Position numbers and translations under genes: made by a program
The notes under the pieces: generated by a model
What the model was told of the DNA's origin: nothing
The model's database searches: none
The model's input: the letters and a program-made list of their open reading frames with translations, nothing else
Shown: in pieces, positions 4,778 through 41,449 of the stretch
Layout: the number at the start of each line of letters is the position of its first letter
Numbering within the stretch: position 1 is the stretch's first letter
NCBI RefSeq assembly: GCF_030063305.1
Contig: NZ_JASISV010000004.1
Location: forward strand, 183,237 to 247,236
Direction: 5' to 3'
DNA length: 64,000 nucleotides
Origin: Salinibacterium sp. G-O1
GTDB lineage: Bacteria; Actinomycetota; Actinomycetes; Actinomycetales; Microbacteriaceae

Positions 4778-4883
4778 CGCTTCGAGACGACCATGGGGCC
4801 GTCGGTCGGCGATTGCGCGTAAATATGCGGAAGTGAACGAACCTTGGATGCCTGCCCACCGCTACTAGGCCTAGTTTTAGAGT

Positions 4884-5074
4884 TCGAATCCCTCACATGC
4901 CACCGAATAGAAAACGCCGGCCCATGCATTTTGGGCCGGCGTTTTCTATTTCTGTAGCGGGTGGAGGACGAGACCCCGCTCGTGGGCCCCCGCTGAGCAG
5001 TCAGCCGCATTGCGCTCTCCCGTCACGGGTTGATCCGCCCAACCGCGCAATGTGGATGCGGCTCAGTAGGGGAG
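4884..5074 (+). repeat. 191-bp tRNA-end repeat, unit A
   Basis: The unit starts with a T-arm/acceptor-like tRNA 3' end (TCGAATCCCTCACATGCC), continues with a perfect hairpin terminator, and then a GC-rich body. The next copy of the same tRNA end begins at 5075. A 42-nt stretch of the body (4976-5017) is identical to 41330-41371 in unit D, 36 kb away, and 5043-5083 matches 41398-41438 with two differences. The 5' half of the parent tRNA is not in the window, so the first copy is a 3'-end fragment, as expected of an attR-like scar. Confidence 0.75.
4906..4950 (+). terminator. Perfect 18-bp hairpin terminator after tRNA-end copy
   Basis: Arms 4906-4923 and 4933-4950 are exactly complementary over 18 bp around a 9-nt loop. 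The A-rich start and T-rich end make it an intrinsic terminator usable in both directions. It sits directly after the tRNA-like 3' end, the normal place for a tRNA terminator. Confidence 0.8.
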
Positions 5075-5266
5075 TCGAATCCCTCACATGCCACCGAACG
5101 AAATGACGCCCCGCACGCATCATCGCGGGGCGTTGTTTCGTTTCCGTAGCGAGTGGAGGACGAGATCCCGCTCGTGGGCCCCGACCCGCGCAGTCCGTCG
5201 CATCGCGCGGTGCGTGAGCTTTTTAGGTGCGTGAGGCCGCGATGTGGCGGCGGCTCGGGTTGGGAG
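5075..5266 (+). repeat. 192-bp tRNA-end repeat, unit B (tandem with unit A)
   Basis: Second tandem unit with the same layout: tRNA 3'-end copy at 5075-5096, hairpin terminator at 5097-5142, GC-rich body, then another tRNA-end copy at 5267-5288. The terminator sequence differs from that of unit A while the order is the same. The body is of a second type: 5148-5288 is nearly identical to 7014-7152 (partial copy C). Both types keep a GGGAGTCGAATCCC T-arm-like junction. Confidence 0.75.
5097..5142 (+). terminator. Hairpin terminator in repeat unit B
   Basis: Arms 5097-5114 and 5125-5142 pair over 18 positions with two adjacent mismatches around a 10-nt loop, and the 3' arm ends in a T-rich run. 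It occupies the same place relative to the tRNA-end copy as the hairpin at 4906-4950, but its sequence is unrelated. Confidence 0.7.
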
Positions 5267-5288
5267 TCGAATCCCTCACATGCCACCG

Positions 5289-5858
5289 AGAAAGTGCTGG
5301 TCAGTGTGGTGTTCTAAGTAATGTCATGCGCGAAAACCCCACAATCCCGACAGAACGCCCACCGAACCTGTAGATAGGTGTTGTGATCGACTGCTCCGTT
5401 AGATGGCGAACCACTCGCTTTCACTACAAAGGGCCTATCGGTGCGGCCTTGAGAAGGTCGAAGCGAGATACGCCGTTGAGCAACGCGTTAACCGAACGGT
5501 GCGTTAGCTTAATCAGTCAGCTAGCCGTGCAGCAGACCCCCCCGAAAAACCCGCAGTGGCTTTGTGAGCAACCCGGCTCAGGCGTGAGGCTGCGCTGGAT
5601 CGCATCGCGTCGAGGTCGGCCTCGAACAGATATGCACAGACGTCGATTGCGGCGCACGGAGGGTCGAGCATTCGTTGCACGGCCTCGCCCGAAGAAGACC
5701 AAGCACCGCTGCTCGCTTTAAAGCCCGCCTCTTGGTCAGATTGACCGTGCGCGCACAGCCAGTGGCCACGGGCGCAAGACCGCTGCCCATGCCATTCCTT
5801 CGGGCACCAGGACGTGGGAACGTCAAAGAGACTCGGATCTCCCGAAAGGACAACCCTC
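5289..5858. other. Gene-poor scar region
   Basis: No convincing coding region was found on either strand. The first 60 bases hold an ACCCCACAA motif (5336-5344) like the possible arm site at 4759. Open frames here give compositionally skewed translations without recognisable motifs. The last 20 bases carry the ribosome binding site of the MoaF gene (GAAAGGA at 5844-5850). Confidence 0.5.
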
Positions 5859-6698
5859 ATGACTGCAGCAACCCGCGACTACGTGGACCACGACGACTTC
5901 CACGACGTGGAGACCGGCCCGGCATTTCTCGAATGGACTGCAGGAATGGAGGCAAATCGGCCCGACCACACTGACGCACTTGACGGCGTCGTCGAACTGC
6001 ACCGCGAAGACGGCGCCGTTCTCGAACTCACCATCGACGCCGGCGAAGCGCGCTGGCAGGTCACGAAGGCACCGGCGATCGTTGAGAAGGATGACTGGTT
6101 TGGTCTCTCCAGTGGATCCGCGCCCGTTGAGGTGCTGCCGCTCAATGGCGATATTTTCTTCATCGATATGGTGATCGGCGGCGGGTCCCCCGAGGGCGCC
6201 ACGGGCGCCACAGTCGTAATTGATCGTGCAAACGACCGCGCACTGGTGATTTACAGTTGGACTTACGATCGAGGCGATGCCCGTCGCACCAAGTCACGAA
6301 TCACTCCGGTAGGCATCGATGGGCCCGCCGCCGATCCCATCGCCCGAACAACTGATCTTGTCGGTCGGCGCGCGCTATGGGTTTACAGCGATGACCACGC
6401 CTACGAGCACGTCTATTTCAACGCGGGCACCTACGCCTGGCACTGCCTCGCCGGCCCTGAGAAGTCCATCGCCGACGTCGATCGCACTGAGACTTACAAG
6501 CTGAATAGCACCGCCTATGTATTCTTTGTCACCGAGACAGCACAACCCTGGGACGGGGTCTTCGTGCTCGACTTCACGCCCGGAGCATCGACCAACATTG
6601 GGCGGTTCTTTGGGTGGGACCCCAAGCCGAACGTTCCGTCGCACAATTCCTTCGGTGCAGTCGGACGCATCCTCAATCAGACCGACTACACGATGTAG
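5859..6698 (+). CDS. MoaF-family protein
   Basis: 279-aa soluble protein with the two-part calycin-like architecture of MoaF. The N-terminal part includes DIFFIDMVIGG (about residues 98-108) and the C-terminal part has the strongly conserved HVYFNAGTYAWHCLAGPEKS block (about 187-206). MoaF was linked to molybdenum cofactor genes in some bacteria, but no moa, mod or molybdoenzyme gene is nearby, so the role here is open; related stand-alone proteins are thought to bind or convert small aromatic or lipid-like ligands. ATG at 5859 is chosen because GAAAGGA lies 8 bases upstream. The gene sits alone between repeat units B and C. Confidence 0.75.
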   Translation: MTAATRDYVDHDDFHDVETGPAFLEWTAGMEANRPDHTDALDGVVELHREDGAVLELTIDAGEARWQVTKAPAIVEKDDWFGLSSGSAPVEVLPLNGDIFFIDMVIGGGSPEGATGATVVIDRANDRALVIYSWTYDRGDARRTKSRITPVGIDGPAADPIARTTDLVGRRALWVYSDDHAYEHVYFNAGTYAWHCLAGPEKSIADVDRTETYKLNSTAYVFFVTETAQPWDGVFVLDFTPGASTNIGRFFGWDPKPNVPSHNSFGAVGRILNQTDYTM

Positions 6699-7013
6699 CC
6701 CCAAAGCTCTGCGCACATGATGGCCTCAGCACATGTTGATGCGCATCCGTCAGACTCTTGAGCAGAGGTGCGTCGATGAGACTCAACATCAACTGCACCT
6801 CCGGTGGTAATGGCGCTCAGACGGTCTTCGAGGCCTACGGCTATCTTCCTCTTCAGTCGGGCGTAGCCGGAAGGGGCGTTGTGCGGTGAACCTATTCACC
6901 AATGAGGAGTATGCGGATGTTGGCAGAGGCCGACGCTGGCCCAGCAATTTACTCTGACCTCAGCCGACGGCTCGCCTGGCGGTGCTCTTGCGCTCGACGA
7001 GCGTGGTCGCCAT
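6699..7013. other. Intergenic region without recognised gene
   Basis: No gene could be supported on either strand. Short open frames are present but carry no family motif and no good ribosome site. The stretch separates the MoaF gene from the partial tRNA-end repeat. Confidence 0.5.
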
Positions 7014-7152
7014 CGCGGTGGAGGACGAGATCCTGCTCGTGGGCCCCGACCCGCGCAGTCCGTCGCATCGCGCGGTGCGTGAGCTTTTGGGTGCGTGCGG
7101 CCGCGATGTGGCGGCGGCTCGGGTTGGGAGTCGAATCCCTCACATGCCACCG
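7014..7152 (+). repeat. Partial tRNA-end repeat, copy C
   Basis: Near-identical to 5148-5288, ending in the same tRNA-3'-end-like sequence (7131-7152), but without the hairpin terminator that opens units A, B and D. The bases after it (GCGCAATGTGGATGCGG, from 7153) match the body of unit A at 5046, so the copy is a mosaic of both body types. It lies just past the 3' end of pgi. Confidence 0.75.
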
Positions 7153-25317: not shown

Positions 25318-25321
25318 GTTT

Positions 25322-25339
25322 GCCCCGGAATTCCGGGGC
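25322..25339. terminator. Palindromic hairpin after tRNA-Met
   Basis: GCCCCGGAATTCCGGGGC is a perfect 18-bp palindrome 5 bp past the tRNA end and inside the prophage. It probably folds as a strong hairpin stopping tRNA transcription, replacing the native terminator that now lies beyond attR at 41260. There is no T-tract, so factor-independent termination would be weak. Confidence 0.5.
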
Positions 25340-25362
25340 TGTAGCGGTTATCGGGTACGGTC

Positions 25363-25387
25363 ACCCCGCATAAACCCCGCACATTCA
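25363..25387 (+). other. Integrase arm-type site (left)
   Basis: Paired CCCCGCA motifs followed by CATTCA. The 25-nt segment matches 41095-41119 at 23 positions in the same orientation. One lies inside each end of the prophage near the att cores, the expected arrangement of arm-type binding sites for a tyrosine integrase. Confidence 0.6.
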
Positions 25388-25390
25388 ATC

Positions 25391-26512
25391 TCACCCAACG
25401 AGCGGCTCGAGAGCCTTCGCTGCTTTCGCGCCACCAGTGTTGCGGGCCATATATACATCCTGCGTGAGGCTCGGATTCTCATGCCCCAGATAGTCGGCAA
25501 TCTCCCGAGCGCTGAGGCCTGCCCTGTCCAACGCGGTCGCGACGGTCTTTCTGAAGCTATGAGTCGTGACGCCAGGGAACCCGAGCCGAGTTCGAGCCTC
25601 CGACCAATCCCGAGACGTATTTCGCGGATCTCGCAGATTGCCAAGAATCGTCGGGAAGACGAGCTCAGTCGTCGCATTCACTCGCCGGTCGGTCAGAAGC
25701 GAAACCAACGTGGCCGGGGGAGTGATCGTCCGGATGCCCGCCTTCGTCTTCGTGTGGTCCTGCCGGAGCACCCCGAGGCCTCTCGCACGCACCGCGTTGG
25801 CCTTTATGGTCACAGAGCCTTCCGCGAGGTCAACGTCCTCCCATGCGAGCCCGCACGCCTCACTGACACGACATCCGGTTCCCGCAAGGAACTCGATCAG
25901 GTCAGCAACATCCAACTCGCGGAGACGAGCATCCTCACGCACACTCACCAGCAACCCCGGGAGGTCAGCAAGTGGGATCGGGATGGCACCCTCAGCGCGA
26001 GCCTCGATGTTGCTGATCTCGCGAACTGGGTTGACGCGAATCGCATCCGACCGAGCGGCCATGCCCATCATCCCCGACAGGACGGACCGGCAAGCCTTCG
26101 CGGCTCCCGGCCCATGGTCGGTGACGACTGTTTGAATGAACCGGCCGAGCCGCTCGGTTGTCGCCTCAGAGACGGCGAGGTTGCCGATCTTCGGCCGTAT
26201 GTGGTGCTCGATAGTCTGCCGGTACGTGTCATAGGTTCGCGGCGCCCGATCGACCTTCGAGGCCAGGAACTTATCCGCAAGAGCCGCAAGGTTCGTTTCC
26301 CGCTTGACCTCGACGCCGGCACTCGCGGACATAGTCGTCAACGCAGTCTGCAGCGCAGCCTTTGCTTTCGCTCGTGATGGAGCGAAACGCTCAACCTGGC
26401 GAAGCTTTCCGTTCTCGTGACGGTATCTAGTCCGCGCCCGCCACTTCCCCGGCTCGACCTCCTGAACGGCGATCGACCCGTGGGAACTAATCGGAGTCCG
26501 CGGGCGGGCCAT
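25391..26512 (-). CDS. int: Tyrosine recombinase (phage integrase)
   Basis: 373-aa integrase. It has an N-terminal arm-binding domain, SAM-like core-binding domain (about 70-160) and the catalytic domain with R in GTGCRVSEACGLAWED, H-x-x-R in THSFRKTVAT, LGHENPS with the second His, and the nucleophile Tyr in DVYMAR. ATG at 26512 (MARPRTP) is favoured; longer starts to 26566 overlap the repressor more. It overlaps the end of the repressor gene by 26 bp, so both are on one leftward transcript. It integrates the element at tRNA-Met. Confidence 0.95.
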   Translation of the reverse strand: MARPRTPISSHGSIAVQEVEPGKWRARTRYRHENGKLRQVERFAPSRAKAKAALQTALTTMSASAGVEVKRETNLAALADKFLASKVDRAPRTYDTYRQTIEHHIRPKIGNLAVSEATTERLGRFIQTVVTDHGPGAAKACRSVLSGMMGMAARSDAIRVNPVREISNIEARAEGAIPIPLADLPGLLVSVREDARLRELDVADLIEFLAGTGCRVSEACGLAWEDVDLAEGSVTIKANAVRARGLGVLRQDHTKTKAGIRTITPPATLVSLLTDRRVNATTELVFPTILGNLRDPRNTSRDWSEARTRLGFPGVTTHSFRKTVATALDRAGLSAREIADYLGHENPSLTQDVYMARNTGGAKAAKALEPLVG

Positions 26513-27329
26513 AAGGCTTACCGGCATCGTCGATTGCGGGGCCATAAACTCTCTCCATCTCGCCAAAGCTCGGAGACAGGTATTCAGTGGCCTTCGTTTC
26601 TATGCTGGGGTCCTGTCGGAGTACGGAGGCGACTTCACGCCGAATCGTGTCGATTCGATTTTGAATCCAGCGTGGAATGCTAGGGCTGGATCCAAATTGT
26701 GTTCCCCATTCGGGCAACCGCCCGAGCAGGTTGCGGTATGCCGTAACAAGATCTTGGCGACGGTCGTGGAGGGTCTCTTCCGTAAGGCTGTCGGCAGTTA
26801 GGCCGAAACTCACTAGGGGAGAGGTCCAAAACATCTGATGTTTTTCCGGGTCGGCCTTGAACTCAGCTTGGATGTCCGGGTCGTTCCGAGCGGATTCCAT
26901 GACCGCGATGTGATCGAGAGTAGTTTCCGCCTCAACCAGAGCACGCATCAGCGCCCACGCTGGGTGAGGAAGTCGCGCAAACCCACGAGGCGTAACATCG
27001 TCGAGATTACTTAGCGTGACGTACTCGGCAACCGAGATACCGGCACCCCAGATGCCCATGCCCTCATAGGGAAGCTTCCCGTACGGATCGTCCGTGTCGA
27101 TCAGCAGAGCAAGTGGACTGATCCGCAGCCCTGAGGCAATCAGGACCACTTCGCTTGAGGTCAAATCTCGCTTTCTTCCACTCTCGATATTCGCGATCAG
27201 TGACCTAGTTATGGCCTCGTTCGGGATGGCTTCCGCCAGCTGCGCCGCGGTCAGGGCCTGCATCTTGCGGTAACCCGCCACTCTTCGACCAATCGCCGGC
27301 GGCTCTTTCGCTTCGGTCGAGGATGTCAT
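26487..27329 (-). CDS. XRE-family phage repressor-like protein
   Basis: 280-aa protein with an N-terminal helix-turn-helix of the XRE type (RVAGYRKMQALTAAQLAEAI, then ITRSLIANIESGRKRDLTSS; about residues 16-60). The C-terminal 200 residues show no peptidase or S24 motif, so autocleavage is not indicated. Its position between integrase and the divergent excisionase-like gene fits the immunity repressor. The inverted repeat in the divergent promoter (27334-27419) is the likely operator. Confidence 0.8.
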   Translation of the reverse strand: MTSSTEAKEPPAIGRRVAGYRKMQALTAAQLAEAIPNEAITRSLIANIESGRKRDLTSSEVVLIASGLRISPLALLIDTDDPYGKLPYEGMGIWGAGISVAEYVTLSNLDDVTPRGFARLPHPAWALMRALVEAETTLDHIAVMESARNDPDIQAEFKADPEKHQMFWTSPLVSFGLTADSLTEETLHDRRQDLVTAYRNLLGRLPEWGTQFGSSPSIPRWIQNRIDTIRREVASVLRQDPSIETKATEYLSPSFGEMERVYGPAIDDAGKPYGPPADSD

Positions 27330-27333
27330 TTCT

Positions 27334-27419
27334 GCACTCTATCGGAACGCCTTGAGCAAAATCAACACTTTGTGCTAGCGAAAAGCGCTGGGTTGGTGTA
27401 GCGTTCCGATTAGAAGTGC
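27334..27419. promoter_or_regulatory. Phage divergent promoter with inverted-repeat operators
   Basis: Between the repressor and the rightward early genes, 27334-27350 (core ATCGGAACGC) is mirrored by 27401-27419 (core GCGTTCCGAT), including outer GCACT and AGTGC arms. A second small inverted repeat, AGCGAAAAGCGCT, lies between them. This is the expected place and form of immunity operators. Confidence 0.55.
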
Positions 27420-27477
27420 AAGTTCGGCGCAAATCCCGCGCAATTATGTAATTTCTACACAAACGATTGGACGGAGA

Positions 27478-27693
27478 ATGACACAGACCACCGCGGCGAA
27501 GGTGAGGGAGCGAGCCGACCAACTCCCCGACTTGCTCAAGCGGCAAGAACTCGCCGATTACACCGGCATCTCAGTGCAGACATTCGCTCGCTGGGCGGTC
27601 GAGAAGTCCGGACCGCGCATGACGAAGCTCGGAGGAGCCGTCCGATACCGGAAGGCAGACGTTCTCGCATGGCTCGAAGCATCGGCAGCATGA
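27478..27693 (+). CDS. Excisionase-like helix-turn-helix protein
   Basis: 71-aa MerR/AlpA-type DNA-binding protein: LLKRQELADYTGISVQTFAR is the helix-turn-helix, and GPRMTKLGGAVRYRKADVLAWLE is the wing typical of excisionases and AlpA regulators. It is the first rightward gene from the immunity region. It probably directs excision or acts as an early regulator. GGAG precedes the ATG closely. Confidence 0.85.
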   Translation: MTQTTAAKVRERADQLPDLLKRQELADYTGISVQTFARWAVEKSGPRMTKLGGAVRYRKADVLAWLEASAA

Positions 27694-27779
27694 CCGCAAC
27701 AACTAAAGAAGGCCCCATCAACGCTGCTCTAACAGCTCCGGGACCTTCACCATCCACACCCTCAGAAAAGGAAATGAAT

Positions 27780-28196
27780 ATGGAAACCAGTCTATCCGGT
27801 ACAACCCCCGAAACCCCAGCGAGCATGCGCGCCCACGCAGCCTCCCTGCTAAATGCAGCCGACCAGCTCGAGCAGGATCTACTCGCCGCAAACGGGCGCC
27901 GCACATGGACCATCGACTGGAACTCTCGCAATCCGGAAAACGAGCGGTACTACCTCGGCATCCAGAGATGCGCCACCAGCCCTGACCGGCCCTTCGTAAA
28001 TCCAGCGACACCTGAAAACGAACAGCTGAGCCCCGGGCACAAGTGGGCCAGCGAACTCCGAAAGACCAAGAAGCGCGAAACGCCAGAGTTCACCCACGAG
28101 TCGATCGCCCTCGTCGAGGTCATCTCCACATGGCGTGACGAGGATGGCCGGCTCTGGGGACGCGTGGCCGAGGTTCTCGTCGCGGTCGCCGCCTAA
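27780..28196 (+). CDS. Phage early protein of unknown function
   Basis: 138-aa protein starting at ATG 27780, 7 bases after AAAAGGA. The frame is also open to an ATG at 27690 that overlaps the excisionase stop, which would add 30 residues. It is acidic and rich in charged residues with no recognised domain; WTIDWNSRNPENERYYLGIQ and VVEVISTWRDEDGRLWGRVAE-like segments suggest a folded protein. Its TAA overlaps the next ATG (TAATG). Confidence 0.7.
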   Translation: METSLSGTTPETPASMRAHAASLLNAADQLEQDLLAANGRRTWTIDWNSRNPENERYYLGIQRCATSPDRPFVNPATPENEQLSPGHKWASELRKTKKRETPEFTHESIALVEVISTWRDEDGRLWGRVAEVLVAVAA

Positions 28197-28381
28197 TGGC
28201 CCTCTGCACCGCATCAGTGCCCGGACAGCGCCCCGTCTGCCCCTGGCCACGAGTCGAGTCAGCAGACAGCTCCCTCTGTGCCCGCCACATCCTCATCGCA
28301 AACAACGACGCCCAAGACATCGGAGTTGCGCTGCTTTCGTCGATCGTGCTGAAGGAAGGAAGAGCAGAAATTTGTCGATAA
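28196..28381 (+). CDS. Small phage ORF
   Basis: 61-aa ORF coupled to the preceding gene by a TAATG overlap at 28194-28198 and overlapping the start of the next gene. It has several Cys (positions 4, 15 and 28) but no clear zinc motif. Support is from position and coupling only. Confidence 0.4.
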   Translation: MALCTASVPGQRPVCPWPRVESADSSLCARHILIANNDAQDIGVALLSSIVLKEGRAEICR

Positions 28382-28704
28382 ATGACACCGCGTGGGCCTA
28401 CACCGTCGACCTGATCGCTTCACCGAAGGCAGTGCTCCTCGCACTCGCCTTCTGCAGGAACGGCAAAACCGGCCGATGCTTCCCCAGCCAGCAGGAACTC
28501 GTCGCGATGACGGGCCTCTCCCCGGCGACGGTAAGACGCTCACTCGGTGATCTGGTCGAAGCGAAACTGATCACGCGGACGAAGACGGTCAAAGGCAGGT
28601 ATCGCAGCAATGACGAATACCAGCTCAACCACGACTATGAGCCCGCAGAAGTACCCGTCACCATGAGCGCCGCTCACCACGCAACAAAGCGGTGCTCACC
28701 GTGA
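28372..28704 (+). CDS. Helix-turn-helix protein, replication-initiator type
   Basis: 110-aa protein with a winged helix: SPKAVLLALAFCRNGKTGRC, then FPSQQELVAMTGLSPATVRR and LVEAKLITRTKTVKGRY, the pattern of the HTH_36/replication-initiator N-domains of phages. A TTG start at 28372 with GGAAGGAAGAG about 9 bases upstream is used. It is followed by a gene that looks like the C-terminal part of the same kind of initiator, so the pair probably starts phage DNA replication. Confidence 0.75.
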   Translation: MSINDTAWAYTVDLIASPKAVLLALAFCRNGKTGRCFPSQQELVAMTGLSPATVRRSLGDLVEAKLITRTKTVKGRYRSNDEYQLNHDYEPAEVPVTMSAAHHATKRCSP

Positions 28705-29072
28705 CTAAAAGTGGTGCTCATGGTGACGGGGCAGTAGTACCAACAGGAAAAGAACCGGAAGATAACCGGAAGAGAGCCGCGCAACGCGGCACACGCATCC
28801 CCGACGACTTCACCGTCACCCCAGCGATGGTCGAATGGGCCAGAGAGCGAACACCGCTCGTAGACGGCCCACGCGCCACCGAGAAGTTCATCAACCACTG
28901 GACAGCAACCAGCGGCCGCAACGCCACCAAACTCGACTGGCCCGCCACCTGGCGCAACTGGATGCTCCGCGACCAAGAAACCGCCAAAGACAGGCCAGCA
29001 CGCCGCAACACACCCGAGGAGCGACTCAGGGCCACACTCGCCCTCGTCCCCGACATCAAGGAGATCTCATGA
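28692..29072 (+). CDS. Phage replication-associated protein
   Basis: 126-aa basic protein. The segment RIPDDFTVTPAMVEWARERT followed by ATEKFINHWTATSGRNATKL and DWPATWRNWML resembles the C-terminal DnaT/replication-protein module often fused to an HTH domain in phages. Here it is separate from and overlaps the HTH gene by 13 bp. GTG start at 28692. Confidence 0.65.
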   Translation: MLTVTKSGAHGDGAVVPTGKEPEDNRKRAAQRGTRIPDDFTVTPAMVEWARERTPLVDGPRATEKFINHWTATSGRNATKLDWPATWRNWMLRDQETAKDRPARRNTPEERLRATLALVPDIKEIS

Positions 29073-29485
29073 ACGACCACGAGCTCGCCCGCGTAGTCGC
29101 CCGCATCCAAGCAGGCGACAACCGCACCGTCGACCGCGTCACGATGAGCCACTGGAAAGAAATCATCGGACACCTGCCCGTCACCGACGCCATGACCGCC
29201 ATCGTCATGCACTTCCGCGAATCCACCGCCTACCTCACACCCGCCCACATCGTCGCCAACGCACGCAGACTCAGCGAGCAGCGCGCACTCGAGGCGCCAC
29301 CCATCGACGACGCACCTATCGGATCTGGGTGGCCCAAACCAGCGAACTACGAGGCCATGAGCGCCGCCTACAACGACCCCGCAGAATTCCAGCACCAGTG
29401 CGCGATCTACAACCGGCAGCTCGCCGACGCCGGATACGAGATCAACCACCGATACCCGATCGCGCCAGCGCAGGAAGCGGCGTGA
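29069..29485 (+). CDS. Phage protein, helicase-loader-like or unknown
   Basis: 138-aa protein with AAGGAG 5 bases before ATG 29069 and an ATGA overlap with the preceding gene. TYL-like N-terminal segment MSHWKEIIGHLPVTDAMTAI and FRESTAYLTPAHIVANARRL resemble small actinophage proteins found after replication initiators. No catalytic motif is seen; the function is unknown. Confidence 0.65.
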   Translation: MNDHELARVVARIQAGDNRTVDRVTMSHWKEIIGHLPVTDAMTAIVMHFRESTAYLTPAHIVANARRLSEQRALEAPPIDDAPIGSGWPKPANYEAMSAAYNDPAEFQHQCAIYNRQLADAGYEINHRYPIAPAQEAA

Positions 29486-29808
29486 CCGCACACCACCGCA
29501 CCGCGGCATGGGCGGCCGTCACCCGAGTACAACGTCCACGCATCGAAGCGACCCTCCCGCGACCCTGCGCCGACTGCGGACGACCCGTAACCCCCGGCCA
29601 AAAATGGCAAGTCGCCCACCTGACCCCAGTCAGCATCGCCAAACGACTCGGCTGGTCAGTGCAACAAATCAACGACCCCAGCAACCTCGGCGCCTCACAC
29701 ACCAAAGCCAAAGGCCAGAAAGCCTGCAACCAAATCGCAGGCGGCAAACTCGGCGCCGCCGCCACCAACCGCAAACGGCAAACCGACAAGAACATGCCCT
29801 CATGGTGA
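29482..29808 (+). CDS. HNH endonuclease
   Basis: 108-aa nuclease with the zinc pair CADCGRPV and a later CNQ, and the HNH elements WQVAHLTPVS, NLGASHTKAKGQK and ACNQIAGGK. HNH proteins next to terminase genes are commonly needed for phage DNA packaging, and no separate small terminase is seen here. GTG start 29482 overlaps the upstream stop by GTGA. Confidence 0.85.
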   Translation: MTAHHRTAAWAAVTRVQRPRIEATLPRPCADCGRPVTPGQKWQVAHLTPVSIAKRLGWSVQQINDPSNLGASHTKAKGQKACNQIAGGKLGAAATNRKRQTDKNMPSW

Positions 29809-30788
29809 ACGCCCTCGCAGGGCTCCACCTCAACCCGTCAGACTACGAACCCGTCACCGCCGAACGCAGAATGATGACCAACCTGCGACCCACAATCGCA
29901 CACGTCAACCAGCACTGGAAACACCGACTCCAACAAGACCGACACGCCGGCATCGTCACCTACGACGACCTCATCTCCGAAGCCTCAGAAATCCTCTGGA
30001 AAGCCGCAAACGAATACCCCGCCTGGGCAACCGAAAGACAACTCGACCCCCACTCAGGAGCGATCTTCTGGGCATACGCCCGCAAAGCAATCGACTGGGG
30101 CCTCGCCAACTACCTACAACACCGCTACCAAAAAACAGACACCAGCCTCGAAAAGATCAGCGGCGAAGACAACCCCGACGACTGGGCCAGCGACGACATC
30201 ATCCGCACCCAACTCTCACGCCACCGACCCGCATCCATGCTCCACGAACAAATCGCCGACCAAATCATCATGACGCGCCGCGACTGGCGAATCCTCATCG
30301 CCCTCCGCTACTTCGAAGAACTCCCATACGAGCAGATAGGGAAACTCACCGACATGAGCCAAGACCGCTCCATCAACTACATCACCGAGATCTGCGGACG
30401 CATCCGAGAACACGCACTCACCCTCGTCGCAGCCGAACCCAGACCACCCATCACCCCACGCAAACTCAACATCGCCGACACCCTGCCCGAACTCGAGCAA
30501 TACATCTGGCGACGATACGGAACCGACACCTCCACCTGGCTCGGATGGGTAGCCCACTGCTACCGACAAGACGTGTCCTACATCACCGACCTCCTGCAGC
30601 ACGGCAACATCATCCGCGCCTTCGGGAAGATCGCCCACAACCGCTCACTCACCGACGAGCAAGTCAGAGACATACGCCGCCGCACCGACGCCGGCGAAGG
30701 CACCGCATCAATCGCTGCCTCCCTCAACACCTCCATGCAAGTCGTCCAGCTCATCAAGGCAGGCAAAACCTACGTGGACGTAGCATGA
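29802..30788 (+). CDS. Phage sigma-70-like factor
   Basis: 328-aa protein. A region-2-like part (VTYDDLISEASEILWKAANE, then IFWAYARKAIDWGLANYLQH; about 50-110) precedes a region-4-like part (RDWRILIALRYFEELPYEQI, then GKLTDMSQDRSINYITEICG; about 160-205). The C-terminus adds an HTH (TDEQVRDIRRRTDAGEGTAS, then IAASLNTSMQVVQLIKAG). It overlaps HNH by 7 bp and terminase by ATGA. I infer it turns on late genes. Third positions are strongly C-rich, unlike the terminase gene that follows. Confidence 0.75.
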   Translation: MVNALAGLHLNPSDYEPVTAERRMMTNLRPTIAHVNQHWKHRLQQDRHAGIVTYDDLISEASEILWKAANEYPAWATERQLDPHSGAIFWAYARKAIDWGLANYLQHRYQKTDTSLEKISGEDNPDDWASDDIIRTQLSRHRPASMLHEQIADQIIMTRRDWRILIALRYFEELPYEQIGKLTDMSQDRSINYITEICGRIREHALTLVAAEPRPPITPRKLNIADTLPELEQYIWRRYGTDTSTWLGWVAHCYRQDVSYITDLLQHGNIIRAFGKIAHNRSLTDEQVRDIRRRTDAGEGTASIAASLNTSMQVVQLIKAGKTYVDVA

Positions 30789-32386
30789 CCACCAACACGC
30801 GACACGCCGAAGAATCAACCGCCGTTTTTGAGAAATCACCATCACCCCCGCCCGTTGGCAGCACGGCTTTTCACACAGACAACTGGGAATCGGTTCGTGA
30901 TCTGTCGATACCTCCGCTGAATCTGTCGGGTCTGTCTGATTCTCAGAGAGGGCGTGAGGAGTTCATTCAGGGCGCGGGGTTGACGAGGTTGACTGGGCCG
31001 CGTGCGAAGCGTGACAAGCGCACGGGGGAGTTGATGACCCCTAGGCCGGCGCAGTTGCTGATCTCGGACGCTGTGAATGCTGCCGATCGCTTCATGGGGA
31101 TACTTGCGCCTCGGAGGTCGACGAAGACTTCGGCGTTGTTCGCGGTGGCGATGGGCAGGATCTCGCTGCGTGAGGATTACAGCATCAGCTACACGATGGC
31201 GACGACGGCGTTGAAGGCTCGGGCGAGGTTCAAGAAGGACATCGCGGAGCCGCTGGAGTTCCTGTTTCCAGATACGAGCTCGCGCCCGTTCAAGCTGAAC
31301 TATGGGGGCGGCTCGGAGTCGGTGCGGTGGCTTGAGACGGGGTCGCTGTTGCAGTTCGGCGCGCCGAAGGGTGACAACTACCGTTCGGATGCGTGGGATC
31401 TGATCATCGTGGATGAGGCTGGCGAGGCCGAGCCGGAGATGACTGACGACCTGATCTCGGGTGCGTTGGCGACGATGGACACGATCCCCGATGCGCTGTT
31501 CATCGCGGCGGGAACGGCAGGGGATATCCGCGCAGGGAACCTGCTCTATCAGACGTTGGACGATGGGCGGGAGGGACGCAACCGGACGACGGTCATCGAG
31601 TTCGCGGCACCCCCGACTACGACCCTTGAGAATGTCATGACCTCGGGCGAGAAGGACTGGGACAAGACGGTGCCGCTGCTCGTTGCCGCTCACCCTGGGA
31701 TCGACCACGGCACGACGCTTGCGGATCTGCGCACCAACTTCGACAAGATGAAGCCGCAGCAGTTCCTCAAGGAGTATCTGGGGATCTTCGGTCAGATCGG
31801 TTCGATGTCGTTCCTGGACCAGATCAAGTTCGGCAAGGGACTGCAGGCATCGCCGCTCCCGGCACCGCCCGAGCTGTTCACCCTCGCGTTCTCGGTTCAC
31901 TTGAACTCGACGGTCGCATCAATCGTTGCCGCGTGGCGTGACGACGACGGGCGCGCATGCTGGCTCGTGATGTACAACGGGCCGGTGCGCGGGCTTCACC
32001 GGGAGGTGCTGCGACTGGCGCTGAAGTACCGCGCGAACGTCGCCTACGACTCCGGCAATGGTGCGACGGACAGCGAGGCGCAGAAGCTGATGAAGGCACG
32101 TCCACGCCCCCGTATGGTGGCGCGCAAGTGGTCGGACGTGTCGACTGCTGCGTCTCTCACGGTCAAGGAGATTGAGTCTGAGAACGTCGTCCATTGGGGG
32201 CAGGACGCTCTCGATGGCGCGGTGAGGCTCGCTACGAAGCGCGGTGCGAGGGACAGCAAACGGTGGTCGTTCGGTCGACCTGACGAGGATGACGACATCA
32301 CCGCGCTCGAGGCCGCAGCGATCGCGTTGCACACCTTCGACGATGCGCCTCCTCGCGCAGCTCTCACCCCGAGCGTGGCCTCATGA
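30785..32386 (+). CDS. Terminase large subunit
   Basis: 533-aa DNA-packaging motor and nuclease. The ATPase part has a Walker-A-like ILAPRRSTKTSALFA (about residue 105) and Walker B DLIIVDEAGE; the nuclease domain includes AYDSGNGATDS and a C-terminal acidic DEDDDITALEAAA. It is of normal length. Codon and base use change inside the first 30 codons: A/C-rich upstream, G/T-rich from about 30,880 onward, which marks a module junction. Confidence 0.9.
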   Translation: MTTNTRHAEESTAVFEKSPSPPPVGSTAFHTDNWESVRDLSIPPLNLSGLSDSQRGREEFIQGAGLTRLTGPRAKRDKRTGELMTPRPAQLLISDAVNAADRFMGILAPRRSTKTSALFAVAMGRISLREDYSISYTMATTALKARARFKKDIAEPLEFLFPDTSSRPFKLNYGGGSESVRWLETGSLLQFGAPKGDNYRSDAWDLIIVDEAGEAEPEMTDDLISGALATMDTIPDALFIAAGTAGDIRAGNLLYQTLDDGREGRNRTTVIEFAAPPTTTLENVMTSGEKDWDKTVPLLVAAHPGIDHGTTLADLRTNFDKMKPQQFLKEYLGIFGQIGSMSFLDQIKFGKGLQASPLPAPPELFTLAFSVHLNSTVASIVAAWRDDDGRACWLVMYNGPVRGLHREVLRLALKYRANVAYDSGNGATDSEAQKLMKARPRPRMVARKWSDVSTAASLTVKEIESENVVHWGQDALDGAVRLATKRGARDSKRWSFGRPDEDDDITALEAAAIALHTFDDAPPRAALTPSVAS

Positions 32387-32664
32387 CTATCCGTGTCGAC
32401 TGTTCCCCGGCGATGACGTTGGTCGTTTGCAGTGAGTGCCCGGGCTGGGATTACATGGCCGCTGACCGTGCTGAGGGGCGCAGGGCGGGCGCTCGCCATG
32501 AGTCCCAGGTGCATCCCGGGTCGGATCGTGCGAAGGGTGCTTTGCGGGTTCAACGATTCCGCGACACGCCGAAGGAAATACATACTGAGTATGTAACGGT
32601 CGAGGTTGATCCTGAAAGTAATGGGACTTCTCGATCTACTCGGACTAGGCCGACAGCGGCCTGA
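32383..32664 (+). CDS. Small phage protein, possible zinc binder
   Basis: 93-aa protein coupled by ATGA to the terminase. VVCSECPGWDYMAADRAEGR with Cys residues at 7, 16 and 19 and two downstream His (about 39 and 44) resembles a small treble-clef zinc knuckle. It lies between terminase and portal and overlaps the portal start by 44 bp. Function unknown. Confidence 0.6.
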   Translation: MTIRVDCSPAMTLVVCSECPGWDYMAADRAEGRRAGARHESQVHPGSDRAKGALRVQRFRDTPKEIHTEYVTVEVDPESNGTSRSTRTRPTAA

Positions 32665-33664
32665 CTATCTGGCGACCCTCGATGATTTCGGGCTGCGGTC
32701 GCCGTGGGCTGAGGGCTCGCTCGCGGCGATCGTCTACGCCGATGTGCTCGGCGCTGATGCCGCGGCCGGGATGCCGCTGAGCAGGGCTGAGGCCATCCAG
32801 ATCCCCGCCGTATCGAAGGCACGAAACCTCCTCGTATCCACCATCGCGAAGCTGCCGCTGGTGGCGCTCGACAAGGATGGCGCGCTGGGCGAGCAGCCCA
32901 CATGGTTGTACCGCACTGACGGGCTTGTGAGCCCGTACGAGCGGCTAGCTTGGACAGTCGATGACCTGATCTTCTATGGGGTCAGCTTGTGGCTGACCGA
33001 ACGGGGAGCGGCTGGCCAAATCTTGAACGCGGAGTGGTGCCCGCCGCAGTTATGGAAGATCACAGACGGGCATGTGCTCGTCAACGACATCGCAGTCGAC
33101 TCCCAGGACTACATCCTGTTTAACCCGCCCTTCGAGGGGCTGCTGAACGTCGGCAGTCGCACCCTGAAGGGTGCCCGCGACACCGAGAAGGCGTGGACGG
33201 GTCGCATGCGCAACCCCATCCCGCTCATCGAGCTGAAAGTTACCGACGACTCAAACCTGACCCAGGCCGAGGTCGACGCCTACGTGAAGGCGTGGGCTGC
33301 CGCTCGCCAGGCCGAGAACGGGGGAGTGAGCTTCACCCCTGCAGGCATGGAAGTGCGCGTCCACGGCGAGGTGAAAGCCGACCTCATGCAGGAAGGCCGC
33401 AACGCGATCCGCACCGACGTTGGCTCATTCCTGAACGTCCGCGCTGCGCTGCTCGATGGCACGACTGGCATCGACTCGCTGACCTACACGACGAAAGACG
33501 GGGAGAAGAACAGCTTCTACGAGCTGGATCTCCCGTTCTGGACGAACCCGATCGAACATGCCTTGTCCGTCGACAAGGTCGTGCCCCGCGGCCAGCGAGT
33601 TCGCTTCGACCGTATCGAGCTTGACAACCCGGTGCTGCCTACCGGCGTACCTACGGAGGACTGA
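32621..33664 (+). CDS. Phage portal protein
   Basis: 347-aa portal protein forming the DNA entry ring of the capsid. MPLSRAEAIQIPAVSKARNL (about 50-70), PTWLYRT, and the LIELKVTDDSNLTQAEVDAY segment are typical of HK97-type portals of actinophages. It is shorter than most (around 450), as seen in very small siphophages. ATG 32621 is chosen; TTG at 32606 is an alternative. Confidence 0.85.
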   Translation: MGLLDLLGLGRQRPDYLATLDDFGLRSPWAEGSLAAIVYADVLGADAAAGMPLSRAEAIQIPAVSKARNLLVSTIAKLPLVALDKDGALGEQPTWLYRTDGLVSPYERLAWTVDDLIFYGVSLWLTERGAAGQILNAEWCPPQLWKITDGHVLVNDIAVDSQDYILFNPPFEGLLNVGSRTLKGARDTEKAWTGRMRNPIPLIELKVTDDSNLTQAEVDAYVKAWAAARQAENGGVSFTPAGMEVRVHGEVKADLMQEGRNAIRTDVGSFLNVRAALLDGTTGIDSLTYTTKDGEKNSFYELDLPFWTNPIEHALSVDKVVPRGQRVRFDRIELDNPVLPTGVPTED

Positions 33665-35268
33665 TGACTGACGGCCTTATCTCGACGAGCACCCTGCTCG
33701 CCGACCTCAACGCACGCACCCTCTCCGGGCTGCTCGTGCCGTTCGGAGAACAGGGAAACACCAACCTCGGCAAGTTCACCGTCGAGGCGGGCGTGCTGAC
33801 CCTGCCCCGCGATCCCTCGGTGGTGACGTTGAACATCGGCCACGACCGCGAGATCCCGGTCGGCCGCGCAACGGTACTCGCTGAGCATGCAGACGGCATA
33901 CATGCGACCTTCAGCTTCGCCAACACGGACGAGGCTGACGAGGCTCTGCTCGCGTACGACGCGGGAACCAGGGGCGCGCTGAGTGTCGAGGCCAAGAACC
34001 TCGTCATCCGAGCCGGCAAAGCGATCGCGGGCCACATCTTCGGCGCCGCGGTCGTTGCCAAGGGCGCGTTCCCGTCAGCGACTCTCATGGCCGCAGACAT
34101 CGGCGAAGAGATTCCCGCTGAAGAGATCCCCACTCTGCTTGAGCCAGTAGACGGTGACATTTCCATCGTCGCTACCGAGATCCCCGAGACAGTCACCGTG
34201 ACTGCCGCGGACAACAGCATCACCTTCACACCCAACACCGAAAGCGAGACACTTGTGATCCCGAACACCCTTCAGGCGGGAGCGGGCACACAGTCCACTC
34301 CTGCTCTTTCCGTCAGTGACATCGGCGGCATGCTCTACGCCATGAACCAGGGCACCCTCTCGGTGGATGACTTCGCCGAACGCCTCGGCCACGAGAACGG
34401 CGCAACACTGTTCGCTGCTCTCTCCGACGTGAAGTACGACGGAGTTGGTGGCATCGCCGGCGTGCAGGGCATCCTCCCGCAGTGGATGGGCCTCATCTGG
34501 TCGGCACTGAACTACCGCCAGCAGGTTCTCCCGCTGTTCGGTCACAAAGACCTCACCAGCCTCACGCTGAACGGGTTCAAGTGGACGCAGAAGCCAGCAG
34601 GTGGAGACTGGGCAGGCAACAAGGCCGCAGTGCCCTCGAACACCCTCACCGTCGCCGCTGTGACCGGCTCCGCAAGCCGCTACGCGGTCGGCCACGACAT
34701 CGCTCGCGAGTTCGTCGACTTCCCCGTCCCCGGCTTCTTCGAGAGCTACGCGGATGCCGTCACCGAGGACTACGCCAAGTGGGCAGACGCGAAGGTTGCA
34801 GCCGCAGTCCTCGCCGGAGCGACCGCCCTCGCCGGTGATGCGCTCACGACCCTCCCGGGCGCAAGTGGTGGCACGATCGGCTCGGCAGCGTCCGCGATCA
34901 TCGACGGCGCGACAGTGCTGGTCACCAATGGTGTACTTCCCTCGTTCGCGCTGGTCGCACCGGCCCTCTGGAAGCAGATGGCCAAGCAGCCGAAGGCGAA
35001 CGTGCTCGGCTACCTGAACGCGGCTCTCGGCCTCAGCGAGGGTGACCTCGACGGGTTCGTGATCCGACCCTCCGCGACGGTCACCGCAGGCAAGGTACTC
35101 GTCGGAGCGAAGGAAGCCGCAACGGTGTACGAACTCCCGGGAGTTCCGATCCGAATCGACGCACTCGACCTCGCCAAGGGCGGCATCGACAAGGCCGCCT
35201 TCGGATACGCCGGCGTGGTCATCAACGACGCGACTGGCTTGCAGCTCGTCACGGCAGCAACGGTCTAA
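33664..35268 (+). CDS. Capsid maturation protease fused to major capsid protein
   Basis: 534-aa fusion. Residues 1-145 look like a U35-type prohead protease: LSGLLVPFGEQGNTNLGKF, the His motif LNIGHDREIPVGR and the Ser motif GALSVEAKNLVI. A linker of about 100 residues follows, then an HK97-fold capsid domain (VQGILPQWMGLIWSALNYRQ onward). In most siphophages these are separate genes. GGAGGA precedes ATG 33664, which overlaps the portal stop by one base. Confidence 0.85.
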   Translation: MTDGLISTSTLLADLNARTLSGLLVPFGEQGNTNLGKFTVEAGVLTLPRDPSVVTLNIGHDREIPVGRATVLAEHADGIHATFSFANTDEADEALLAYDAGTRGALSVEAKNLVIRAGKAIAGHIFGAAVVAKGAFPSATLMAADIGEEIPAEEIPTLLEPVDGDISIVATEIPETVTVTAADNSITFTPNTESETLVIPNTLQAGAGTQSTPALSVSDIGGMLYAMNQGTLSVDDFAERLGHENGATLFAALSDVKYDGVGGIAGVQGILPQWMGLIWSALNYRQQVLPLFGHKDLTSLTLNGFKWTQKPAGGDWAGNKAAVPSNTLTVAAVTGSASRYAVGHDIAREFVDFPVPGFFESYADAVTEDYAKWADAKVAAAVLAGATALAGDALTTLPGASGGTIGSAASAIIDGATVLVTNGVLPSFALVAPALWKQMAKQPKANVLGYLNAALGLSEGDLDGFVIRPSATVTAGKVLVGAKEAATVYELPGVPIRIDALDLAKGGIDKAAFGYAGVVINDATGLQLVTAATV

Positions 35269-35271
35269 CCC

Positions 35272-35589
35272 GTGGATGGGTGGTGGGGAGTGGGATTTGA
35301 GGAGCTGCGCGATGCGTGGCCCGATGCTCCCGAGGATTACCAGACGTGTGGGCGCCTTCTCGAGGCCGCCTACATCCAGTGCAGCGAATTCGCACCGGCG
35401 TTTGAGGGTGCCCTCCCCGAAACCTACCGCCTCGCGCTGATCATGCAGACCCGCGCATTGTGGCAGTCGACCGTCTCCGACACTCAGGACGGCATGGGGG
35501 AGGGCGGGTTTCACGTCACCGTCTTCCCCATGGACTGGACAGTGAAAGCTCTCCTGCGCCCGAAGCGTGGCGTTCCGGTGGTCGGCTGA
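35272..35589 (+). CDS. Head-tail connector protein
   Basis: 105-aa helical protein starting with GTG 35272, 3 bp after the capsid stop. The helical segment FEELRDAWPDAPEDYQTCGR and YRLALIMQTRALWQSTVSDT fit the small adaptor proteins that sit directly after the capsid gene. The assignment rests mainly on position. Confidence 0.65.
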   Translation: MDGWWGVGFEELRDAWPDAPEDYQTCGRLLEAAYIQCSEFAPAFEGALPETYRLALIMQTRALWQSTVSDTQDGMGEGGFHVTVFPMDWTVKALLRPKRGVPVVG

Positions 35590-35960
35590 TGGGCACTCTT
35601 CGCGAGCAGCTCGCCGACCAGCTCAGGCCGCTGCTACCTGCCGCGTGGAAGCTCGTCGACGTGGAGCGAAATGTCGATGCCACCAACACCCCGGTCGTGC
35701 AGTTGAAGCTCGGCGACATCGCAAAGACAGATGCTGCACCTCAGGGGATGTTCACCAGCACCTGGACGATCACGATTATCTCGCCGCATCAGGACATCAC
35801 GAAAGCCGAATACCAACTCGACGATGACGTGATCGATCTGCTCTTCGCGCTCGACACGATCCCCGGTGTGCAGTGGTCCGCCGCCAAGAAAGTTGCCGTC
35901 GATGAAACCCGCCTCGGGTGGGACATCACCACCGAGATGCACGTACAGAAGGAAGCCTGA
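35589..35960 (+). CDS. Probable tail terminator/neck protein
   Basis: 123-aa protein coupled by a TGATG overlap to the connector. It has an alpha-beta pattern with TWTITIISPHQDITKAEYQL and DLLFALDTIPGV, like the small tail-terminator proteins (gpU/gp17-type) preceding the major tail gene. Assigned by order and secondary structure pattern. Confidence 0.6.
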   Translation: MGTLREQLADQLRPLLPAAWKLVDVERNVDATNTPVVQLKLGDIAKTDAAPQGMFTSTWTITIISPHQDITKAEYQLDDDVIDLLFALDTIPGVQWSAAKKVAVDETRLGWDITTEMHVQKEA

Positions 35961-35962
35961 TC

Positions 35963-36367
35963 ATGCCCACAATCGCCGTAGTCCCAATTGTCCTGAAGGA
36001 TGTCCTGCTGAAACTTGGCGCGACGAACGAGTACCAGAAGCACGTCTCCGGGGTTGAACTTATCCCCAGCGCGTCAACAGTGAACTGGAAGGGCCTCACG
36101 CCCGATTCCATCTTCACCGATGTCACGACGGCGACGTGGACCTGCAACCTCAGCTTCGCGCAGGACTGGGCCACCACGGACAGCCTCTCGAAGTACCTGT
36201 TCGCAAACGAGGGAACCGCGGTGGTTGCCACATTCCAGCCAATCTCGGGCGGTGCGAGCTTCGCAGCTACGCTCCTCATCACTCCCGGGTCGATCGGTGG
36301 GCAGGTCGACTCGGTAGCCGTCTCGACCGTCACCCTCGGTGTGCGCGGCCGCCCGGTACTCACCTAA
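35963..36367 (+). CDS. Major tail protein
   Basis: 134-aa beta-rich protein with a GAAGGA ribosome site. TATWTCNLSFAQDWATTDSL and the closing VAVSTVTLGVRGRPVLT are typical of short tail-tube subunits. It lies between the neck genes and the tape measure. Confidence 0.75.
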   Translation: MPTIAVVPIVLKDVLLKLGATNEYQKHVSGVELIPSASTVNWKGLTPDSIFTDVTTATWTCNLSFAQDWATTDSLSKYLFANEGTAVVATFQPISGGASFAATLLITPGSIGGQVDSVAVSTVTLGVRGRPVLT

Positions 36368-36370
36368 ACG

Positions 36371-39904: not shown

Positions 39905-39920
39905 GGCGTAGCTTGAACGC

Positions 39921-40061
39921 ATGGCCCGACCTACCGACGACGACTTCGACCAGCTCGTGCCCGACGACGACCCGGAGGTTATCGCGGGGATGGCAGCGCT
40001 CGCGGTTCTGCGGAGCGAGGAGGGTGAGGTCGTTGACCTAACGCTCGGGAAAATTCGATGA
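39921..40061 (+). CDS. Small acidic phage protein
   Basis: 46-aa acidic ORF starting with ATG 39921, 17 bp after the tail gene, with many Asp/Glu (TDDDFDQLVPDDDPEVIAGM). No membrane segment is present, so it is not a holin. Function unknown; support is position and reading-frame composition. Confidence 0.5.
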   Translation: MARPTDDDFDQLVPDDDPEVIAGMAALAVLRSEEGEVVDLTLGKIR

Positions 40062-40194
40062 GTTTCCGAACGTGGCAGATTCTTGGGTAAAAGTCCAGAA
40101 ACCTCACCAAAATGTCAGCTATGTCTGTTAACCTCGGTGGGACAGGTCGCTTGAGACTTGCCAGGAATGTCCAGCGGTGCTGCCACCGCACTCC

Positions 40195-41217: not shown

Positions 41218-41258
41218 CATAATCGTGAGGTCGCGGGTTCGAATCCCGCCTCAGCTAC
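41218..41258 (+). repeat. attR core
   Basis: Exact 41-bp copy of the tRNA-Met 3' half at 25277-25317. Only the 3' part of the tRNA is present, so this copy is not a functional tRNA. It is directly followed by the native tRNA terminator. Confidence 0.95.
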
Positions 41259-41429
41259 AGAGACAAAAAGAGGCCCCACCGTTTACGTGGGGTCTTTTGT
41301 TGTCTCGGCGGGCGAGGCGGATTGAGAAGCCGCTCGTGGGCCCCCGCTGAGCAGTCAGCCGCATTGCGCTCAACGCGCGGCCTGTCCCTTCGCTCTACCG
41401 CGCGATGTGGATGCAGCTCAGTAGGGGAG
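41239..41429 (+). repeat. 191-bp tRNA-end repeat, unit D
   Basis: Same layout as units A and B, but with the tRNA-Met 3' end as boundary: TCGAATCCCGCCTCAGCTAC at 41239-41258 and again at 41430-41449, exactly 191 bp apart. Between them lie a terminator and a body sharing 42 identical bases with unit A. Before prophage integration this unit stood directly behind the intact tRNA-Met gene. Confidence 0.75.
41260..41306 (+). terminator. Native tRNA-Met terminator, now beyond attR
   Basis: Arms 41260-41279 and 41287-41306 form a long hairpin (GAGACAAAAAGAGGCCCCAC against GTGGGG and a T-rich arm, with a few mismatches). It follows the attR core and so was the original terminator of the tRNA gene. 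Confidence 0.7.
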
Positions 41430-41449
41430 TCGAATCCCGCCTCAGCTAC

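Follow-up and report, generated by a model that had tools for sequence, protein, structure and literature searches.

Very small units with a palindromic core and host-matched ends recur at tRNA and tmRNA 3' ends in Microbacteriaceae

In a stretch of 64,000 nucleotides from Salinibacterium sp. G-O1 (contig NZ_JASISV010000004.1, positions 183,237 to 247,236; hereafter the window), the 3' end of a tRNA gene stands at 4884, 5075 and 5267, with spacings of 191 and 192 bp, which raises the question of how a tRNA end came to border so small a unit on either side. A sequence-only reading of the window had proposed a very small element that lands in tRNA 3' ends, regenerates the end and brings its own terminator. 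The three end copies it had pointed out were borne out as an exact 21-mer, TCGAATCCCTCACATGCCACC, a fourth exact copy of which was found at 7131; a 24-mer overlapping it gave 4 matches with up to 3 mismatches in the window and 0 in any of 100 dinucleotide-preserving shuffles. The parts between the copies also follow the same order, with two strong hairpins of unrelated sequence as claimed (4906-4950, arms of 19 nt, 100% paired; 5097-5142, arms of 18 nt, 89% paired) and with body parts whose first 42 bases are 93% identical (4949-4990 compared with 5141-5182). Positions of all features in the window are collected in Table 1.

Table 1. Features of the tRNA-Tyr array and the tRNA-Met unit, in window coordinates
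Feature	Position	Strand	Basis
tRNA-Tyr 3' end, copy 1 (T-loop to position 73); right end of the 10.8-kb stretch	4881..4904	+	24-mer matches, ORFs
Unit 1 terminator hairpin, 19-nt arms	4906..4950	+	hairpin search
Unit 1 left arm, pairs with tRNA-Tyr end copy in the fold	4953..4978	+	folding
Unit 1 palindromic core (body), long form	4979..5074	+	body search, alignment, model
tRNA-Tyr 3' end, copy 2; closes unit 1 and opens unit 2	5075..5095	+	TCGAATCCCTCACATGCCACC match
Unit 2 terminator hairpin, sequence differs from unit 1	5097..5142	+	hairpin search
Unit 2 left arm	5145..5170	+	folding
Unit 2 palindromic core, long form; compensatory changes relative to unit 1	5171..5266	+	alignment, model
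tRNA-Tyr 3' end, copy 3	5267..5287	+	TCGAATCCCTCACATGCCACC match
MoaF-like gene between copy 3 and third core, possible cargo	5856..6698	+	Pfam PF17409, PF10703
Palindromic core 3	7036..7130	+	body search, model
tRNA-Tyr 3' end, copy 4; closes 1.86-kb segment	7131..7151	+	TCGAATCCCTCACATGCCACC match
Intact tRNA-Met gene; unit at 41239-41449 split off by prophage-like segment	25243..25317	+	ARAGORN/sequence
tRNA-Met 3' end at right junction of prophage-like segment; opens Met unit	41239..41258	+	sequence
Met unit terminator hairpin	41260..41307	+	sequence
Met unit left arm with inverted tRNA-Met end copy GGCGAGGCGG	41308..41332	+	sequence, permutation test
Met unit palindromic core, best model score	41333..41429	+	body search, covariance model
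tRNA-Met 3' end copy closing Met unit	41430..41449	+	sequence

ARAGORN reported no tRNA gene at the array with its three TCGAATCCCTCACATGCCACC copies. The intact tRNA-Tyr(gta) gene lies at contig C4:177228-177311, 5.9 kb upstream of the window start, and is separated from the array by a 10.8-kb cargo stretch (window -5945 to 4884, C4:177312-188120) with a sulfatase, a ROK regulator and genes reading as a peptide transporter operon. No ORF of at least 200 aa in this stretch reads as an integrase, and none of the five integrase genes in the window's genome lies inside it or inside the 7.4-kb tRNA-Arg stretch described below. Copy 1 therefore looks like the right end of a cargo island in tRNA-Tyr, which would have displaced the small array from the gene. 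Copy 3 is followed by GAGAAAGTGCTGGTCAG, which is identical to the sequence 3' of the intact tRNA-Tyr gene outside the window.

The recurrence of body parts, also noticed from the letters alone, was found at 10 places in the window's genome, including the tRNA-Tyr gene itself and partial pieces. Complete bodies stand at tRNA-Tyr (three), tRNA-Met, tRNA-Lys and tRNA-Arg(acg), and each is closed by the end of its own tRNA, the copy at Arg being altered at several positions. The unit with the Met end occupies 41239-41449 of the window, with a period of 191 bp. A prophage-like segment (window 25318-41238) sits in tRNA-Met(cat), with an integrase gene at 25439-25900 and a right junction at about 41216-41258; its right part contains a DUF3800-IV RNA at 40142-40232 and an ORF that may be a DUF3800 gene.

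An alignment of 14 bodies gave a hairpin of 26 base pairs, 11 of them with compensatory changes, and was used to build a covariance model (R1). The junction is invariant in all 14, reading GGGAGTC and then tRNA sequence, and the size of terminator-body units is about 145-230 bp. In a wider alignment of 50 distinct rows (A3), which was fitted to R1 and includes reverse-strand echoes, 95.0% of cells were paired and 14 of the 26 pairs had changed on both sides, with 0 of 500 shuffles as high on any covariation measure. The folding energies of the window units were moderately better than those of shuffles (z = -1.71 and -2.16), and covariation is the stronger structural evidence. The ordinary RNA or protein gene that the sequence-only reading had set against its own proposal was not seen, as no Rfam 15 family reached its gathering score on the body and two short ORFs across it matched no Pfam family. 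An apical C-GNA-G triloop occurs in 19 of 49 short-form cores; this triloop is very stable in DNA hairpins, and its presence is no more than suggestive of a preference for single-stranded DNA.

We collected 94 non-redundant bodies from two sets of matches, taking 43 of 54 from the first (leaving out 8 reverse-strand echoes and 3 repeats of window copies) and 51 of 71 from the second (leaving out 11 reverse-strand echoes, 7 repeats of known sites and 2 weak neighbours). In 68 of the 94, a tRNA or tmRNA gene in the same orientation ends 31-97 bp (median 69) before the body; these host genes are of 21 kinds, tmRNA included. Another 11, which are tandem units or prophage or island junctions, lack a complete adjoining gene but show a repeat of their 3' end no more than 125 bp upstream; tandem units were found in the window and at L106, L126, L052 and L058. 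Neither arrangement applies to the other 15; some of these are weak or partial matches, two stand at the end of a contig, one belongs to a unit split by an apparent IS, and for several the upstream gene was not recognised. A 1.4-kb gap inside the unit at L132 was considered as element cargo and rejected, because its ORFs, judged by eye, look like those of an IS carrying a DDE-type transposase. When one genome from each of 84,980 species was scanned for the exact pattern, 18 places came up: 12 lie 63-98 bp 3' of a tRNA (9 of them with 12 nt or more of end copy), one stands 1.7 kb 3' of tRNA-Pro and has a Pro copy, two carry what resembles a tRNA end copy in a piece without the gene, and three lie away from tRNAs. 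The expectation that body matches lie directly 3' of tRNA genes therefore held for most of them, at a near-constant distance, and failed at three of the 18 pattern matches; the scattered matches that would have spoken against an element were not seen. At L238, L242 and L243 the cores GGGCCCCCGCTGAGCAGTC...GGCTCAGTAGGGGA were observed away from any tRNA, that of L243 between apparently convergent genes (greA end) and that of L242 beside the nusA end (gene names by eye).

The sequence after the body copies the host gene from the T-loop on, and a weaker inverted copy precedes the body. Of the 68 sites adjoining an annotated gene, 60 have an end repeat of 12 nt or longer and 41 one of 20 nt or longer. 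Some end copies measure only 8-9 nt (L057, L059, L078 and L083). The commonest stopping point of the identity block is exactly the end of the tRNA gene (20 of 67 sites). The further claim that each end copies its particular tRNA was confirmed by permuting hosts among 34 sites of 3 genomes, one entry per site and all with a known host: the end copy matched its own tRNA with an identity of 0.767 compared with 0.466 (sd 0.022) for permuted hosts, none of 5000 permutations being as high. The inverted copy likewise favoured its own tRNA (score 7.18 compared with 5.66, sd 0.22; 0 of 5000 permutations), the left arm of unit 1 taken alone scoring below the mean of other tRNAs in this family-wide test. 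The Gly units were out of register in the permutation test and so scored too low. With the tRNA intact and its 3' end directly repeated on either side, the units show a feature of tRNA-integrating islands.

Comparison of empty and filled sites was possible at two tRNAs. At tRNA-Arg(acg), 10 genomes are empty: a conserved flank, which contains a terminator, begins directly where the full tRNA ends. In G021, G007 and G065 this flank comes only after a different terminator, the body and the end copy, which stand between it and the tRNA (flank scores of 52, 41 and 47, respectively, vs 13-15 for the best 1% of shuffles). At tRNA-Pro(ggg), G000, G002, G008 and G017 are empty, with the flank directly after the tRNA, and in G194 the flank comes after the end copy (score 48 vs 13 for shuffles); in G005 it was recognised after the end copy by eye, in a piece read on the end-copy side only. 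Flank scoring covered 14 of 17 filled rows (L110, L314 and L249 were dropped, their end copy not being located), and in 0 of the 14 was the empty-site flank recognisable directly 3' of the tRNA (scores 6-11). In the Arg and Pro cases where the flank follows the end copy, terminator, body and end copy are therefore together the inserted part. The flank after the end copy was unrecognisable in five of the eight scored filled tRNA-Arg(acg) sites (G000, G171, G002, G010 and G284) and in five of the six scored filled tRNA-Pro(ggg) rows, and two pairs of these Pro rows are probably the same sites. Redundant terminators may decay, and the flanks may be hot spots for other elements. The flanks of tRNA-Met and tRNA-Arg(ccg) were too variable for such a comparison.

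The proposal of a small element that regenerates the tRNA end is supported by the position of most bodies, by their matched ends and by the Arg(acg) and Pro(ggg) sites; no enzyme that would move it was found. That the element brings its own terminator stood in part: the terminator is foreign at Arg(acg) and Pro(ggg), but at tRNA-fMet the terminator CCCGGTC...GACCGGG looks native because it is common to genomes with and without the body. A perfect stem of at least 9 bp follows the tRNA in 28 of 68 sites and the end copy in 7 of 68, compared with 0 of 68 in shuffled sequence; a count of inverted repeats was confounded by the terminator stems and set aside. At tRNA-fMet of G003, G004, G017 and G010 (L171, L169, L172 and L166) we observed a second, unlike hairpin, GCGAGGGGCCCCGGG...GGGGGAGCC...GACGCCCCGCAAC, which ends with a copy of the fMet 3' end in L169, L172 and L166; there may therefore be more than one core family. 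In body-free tRNA-Arg(acg) genomes (G005, G025, G008, G026 and others; L279-L304), up to five tRNA-Arg ends were seen, each with the same flank and a repeated TGCCCACA, and these are probably the left ends of stacked islands of another family.

The most surprising part of the data is that a core can change its host gene while the end still fits the host. In G003, cores at Arg(acg), Ser(gga) and Tyr are 94-97% identical despite their differing tRNA ends, and in G010 cores at Ser(gct) and Leu(gag) are 97% identical despite theirs; near-identical cores at different tRNAs therefore mean that the core can switch host with the end still matched. Core lineages specific to one tRNA were rejected, since no more than 28 of 89 bodies shared their kind of tRNA with the nearest other body. 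A tentative reading, to which we give rather less than even credence, is a self-retargeting element, whose palindromic core would move among tRNA and tmRNA genes of every kind and, on each landing, take on the end of the gene it enters, both directly and inverted, and so stay matched to the essential gene that it occupies.

Sampling one genome per species, we found the body with R1 in 15 of 27 genomes of the genus, and it was absent from the other 12; the most matches in one genome were 19, two of them reverse-strand echoes. Under stricter filters, with which weak matches may be lost, the sample of the family Microbacteriaceae yielded the body in 25 of its 299 genomes, from 15 of its 85 genera, and the order sample, which contains members of that family, in 1 of 396 genomes, the window's own. 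Thirteen of the 18 pattern-scan places belong to Salinibacterium, Rhodoglobus, Glaciihabitans, Leifsonia and Schumannella, all Microbacteriaceae genera, and the others to one 'Microbacteriaceae bacterium' record and four actinobacterial MAGs without a genus; some of these places coincide with sites of the genomes numbered here. Carriage by viruses, phages or plasmids was considered and dropped, as neither the exact pattern nor blastn with one body gave a match in viral contigs, phages or plasmids. G003 has 18 cores, one of them weak (22.9 bits), in 16 regions, 15 at an intact tRNA or tmRNA gene and 1 at a tRNA end split off by a prophage-like segment. The family is a real, structurally constrained and lineage-limited set of minimal elements bound to tRNA and tmRNA 3' ends. 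The sequence-only reading had known of no described element of this size and layout, and we found none in the open-licence literature either.

Larger segments also lie between such ends. A MoaF-like gene stands between copies 3 and 4 of the tRNA-Tyr end (window 5288-7151), a 7.4-kb segment at tRNA-Arg (L018) carries a multicopper oxidase and an amino-acid permease and ends in a partial core, and the 1.7 kb between tRNA-Pro and a core with a Pro copy at L249 encodes a protein with a NucA/NucB nuclease domain (1424-2613). No recombinase gene was recognised in these three places, which suggest that genes can travel between such ends. By eye, the start of the L249 nuclease protein is Rhs-like, and the small ORF next to it, without a Pfam match, is a possible immunity gene.

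As for the enzyme, the units have no integrase of their own, the two short ORFs across them matching no Pfam family. Mobilisation by Y1/HUH transposases (IS200, RAYT) was rejected for the genus, because PF01797 (Y1 transposase) was detected in 0 of its 27 genomes while 5 of 14 control genomes were positive. In G003, with its 15 occupied tRNA and tmRNA genes, three integrase-family genes were found at E values up to 1e-8, two of which we take for XerC and XerD by their size and presence everywhere; the third lies in a prophage-like segment, 0.6 kb from a core. A dedicated tyrosine integrase beside the core was thus considered and dropped, as this candidate appears to belong to the prophage-like segment (L109), whose right junction is in a tRNA end, by eye of tRNA-Thr, adjoining the core. 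At the listed positions no integrase gene was consistently beside the cores.

The arrangement, its repetition at 21 kinds of tRNA and tmRNA gene, the host-specific ends and the empty sites at two tRNAs are matters of observation, and T-loop insertion by an enzyme acting in trans fits them best. We think it somewhat probable that the units are tiny insertion elements in tRNA and tmRNA genes, which carry no recognisable genes and enter at the T-loop/3' end. A unit would consist of the tRNA 3' end from the T-loop, the terminator, a left arm with the inverted end copy, and a core ending in GGGGA(GTC). On its entry at the T-loop/3' end, the tRNA would keep a full 3' end and take its terminator from the unit, and the displaced original end would remain as the right-hand copy; units could then stack in tandem at one site, with larger cargo between such ends. 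The recombining form may be a small circle, made up of the tRNA end from the T-loop on, the terminator, the inverted arm and the core, or its folded single strand, acted on in trans most likely by a tyrosine recombinase with the T-arm as core site; tyrosine integrases commonly cross over at the T-loop/3' end of tRNA genes. The inverted and direct tRNA ends and the core may together fold into an attachment site, in which the left arm, folded on the end copy, would form a hairpin presenting a T-arm-like duplex, comparable in principle with attC. It counts against this best explanation that a plain integrase model has no need of an inverted copy, that some end copies are as short as 8-9 nt, and that only 7 of 68 end copies are followed by a perfect stem of 9 or more although a displaced native terminator is expected there.

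The main rival to such insertion is target-primed copying, in which the core alone would be mobile, its 3' ends (GGGGAGTC mimics the T-stem GGGGTTC) priming on the target T-arm and both strands being extended, to yield a direct copy on the right and an inverted copy on the left. It would explain host matching with no library of pre-adapted elements, and it agrees with the finding that outward from the core both sides run into host sequence from the T-loop to the 3' end, with copies of varying length that extend into the terminator at L063 and L093, and with near-identical cores at different tRNAs and rarely at no tRNA. At Arg(acg) and Pro(ggg), however, the sequence to the left of the core, terminator included, is non-native, so that more than the core entered; the end copies begin at different T-loop positions (e.g. 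in the Gly units), and no polymerase or nuclease is known to take part. We regard this copying as unlikely, and give the same weight to the idea that the units are worn remnants of ordinary tRNA islands, the core being the right attachment arm of a formerly large family and the rest deleted. Cargo without a recognised integrase between tRNA ends (10.8 kb at tRNA-Tyr, 7.4 kb at tRNA-Arg) and prophage-like segments at the same sites (window 25318-41238; L109) would suit such an origin. Yet small units with near-fixed spacing are the rule and large ones the exception, no integrase gene is consistently beside the core, and the cores are structurally conserved and not decayed.

Slightly less likely still, in our judgement, is that no element enters at all and that a REP-like palindrome downstream of a tRNA is made into a unit by local tandem duplication and gene conversion. 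The native-looking terminator beside tRNA-fMet, the frequency of tandem units, the copies reaching into the terminator at L063 and L093, the few cores at non-tRNA sites, and the lack of a recognisable native flank or a strong hairpin after the end copy at most filled sites all agree with this account; against them stand the Arg(acg) and Pro(ggg) sites, where terminator, body and end copy lie ahead of an otherwise intact flank, and the requirement that a duplication began in the T-loop independently at each of 21 kinds of gene. That the body is a functional RNA or a regulatory hairpin of tRNA operons, and not an element, seems very improbable. A covarying helix with G-U pairs at a fixed position relative to tRNA 3' ends is what such an RNA might look like, but the body mostly stands 3' of a terminator, 12 of 27 genus genomes lack it, it carries the end of whichever tRNA precedes it, and it has no Rfam match.

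Among known systems, the inserted units are nearest in kind to tRNA-integrating islands, prophages and ICEs, which target the tRNA 3' end, restore the tRNA, leave a direct repeat on the far side and stack in tandem; they encode an integrase and usually have a single target. The units share the 3'-end target, the kept tRNA, the far-side repeat and the tandem arrangement, but they measure about 145-230 bp instead of kilobases and have no recognised genes and no integrase, one type of core serves 21 kinds of tRNA and tmRNA gene with a matching end at each, and an inverted tRNA-end copy lies beside the core. They behave like such an island, and we do not file them as one because they lack an integrase and genes and have many targets. 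REP/BIME palindromes, which are mobilised by RAYT (Y1) transposases, resemble the units as short, multicopy, intergenic palindromes plausibly moved in trans and rarely beside protein genes; the units differ in the lack of a Y1 transposase in 27 genomes, in the strong association with tRNA 3' ends and in the copying of the host's end. With integron attC sites, whose crossover box has the consensus GTTRRRY, they share a long, imperfect hairpin through which a single strand could form an attachment site, and with integron cassettes the occasional cargo gene ended by a hairpin (window 5288-7151), but their junction has no GTTRRRY box and the site is a tRNA gene instead of an attI array. Tycheposons likewise have a tRNA at one border and cargo variants at the same tRNA, but span 4-200 kb and carry the tyrosine recombinase xerD, and the units have neither that size nor a tyrosine recombinase (PMC10872708). 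In Methanopyrus kandleri, palindromes CGTTA-N9-TAACG stand 10 bp 3' of roughly half the tRNA genes, and a processing signal was suggested by the authors; they resemble the units in being repeated and in keeping a set distance from the 3' ends of many tRNA genes, and differ in being short and archaeal and in that the text seen mentions no tRNA-end copy (PMC5217627).

That islands and phages integrate into tRNA 3' ends is among the longest-known facts about them. A gene-free element that serves 21 kinds of tRNA and tmRNA gene with one type of core and an end that is nearly always the right one raises the question of how the end is matched. If the core does acquire its ends from each new target, such target-templated end acquisition would be a categorically new insertion mechanism. 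The family shows how small a tRNA-targeted element can be, and it is a likely substrate for a recombinase or copying enzyme. Partial tRNA ends 3' of tRNA genes, for their part, need not mark lost islands. For Microbacteriaceae, the family points to a way, not described before, in which minimal DNA parasites could live in essential genes and leave them unharmed.
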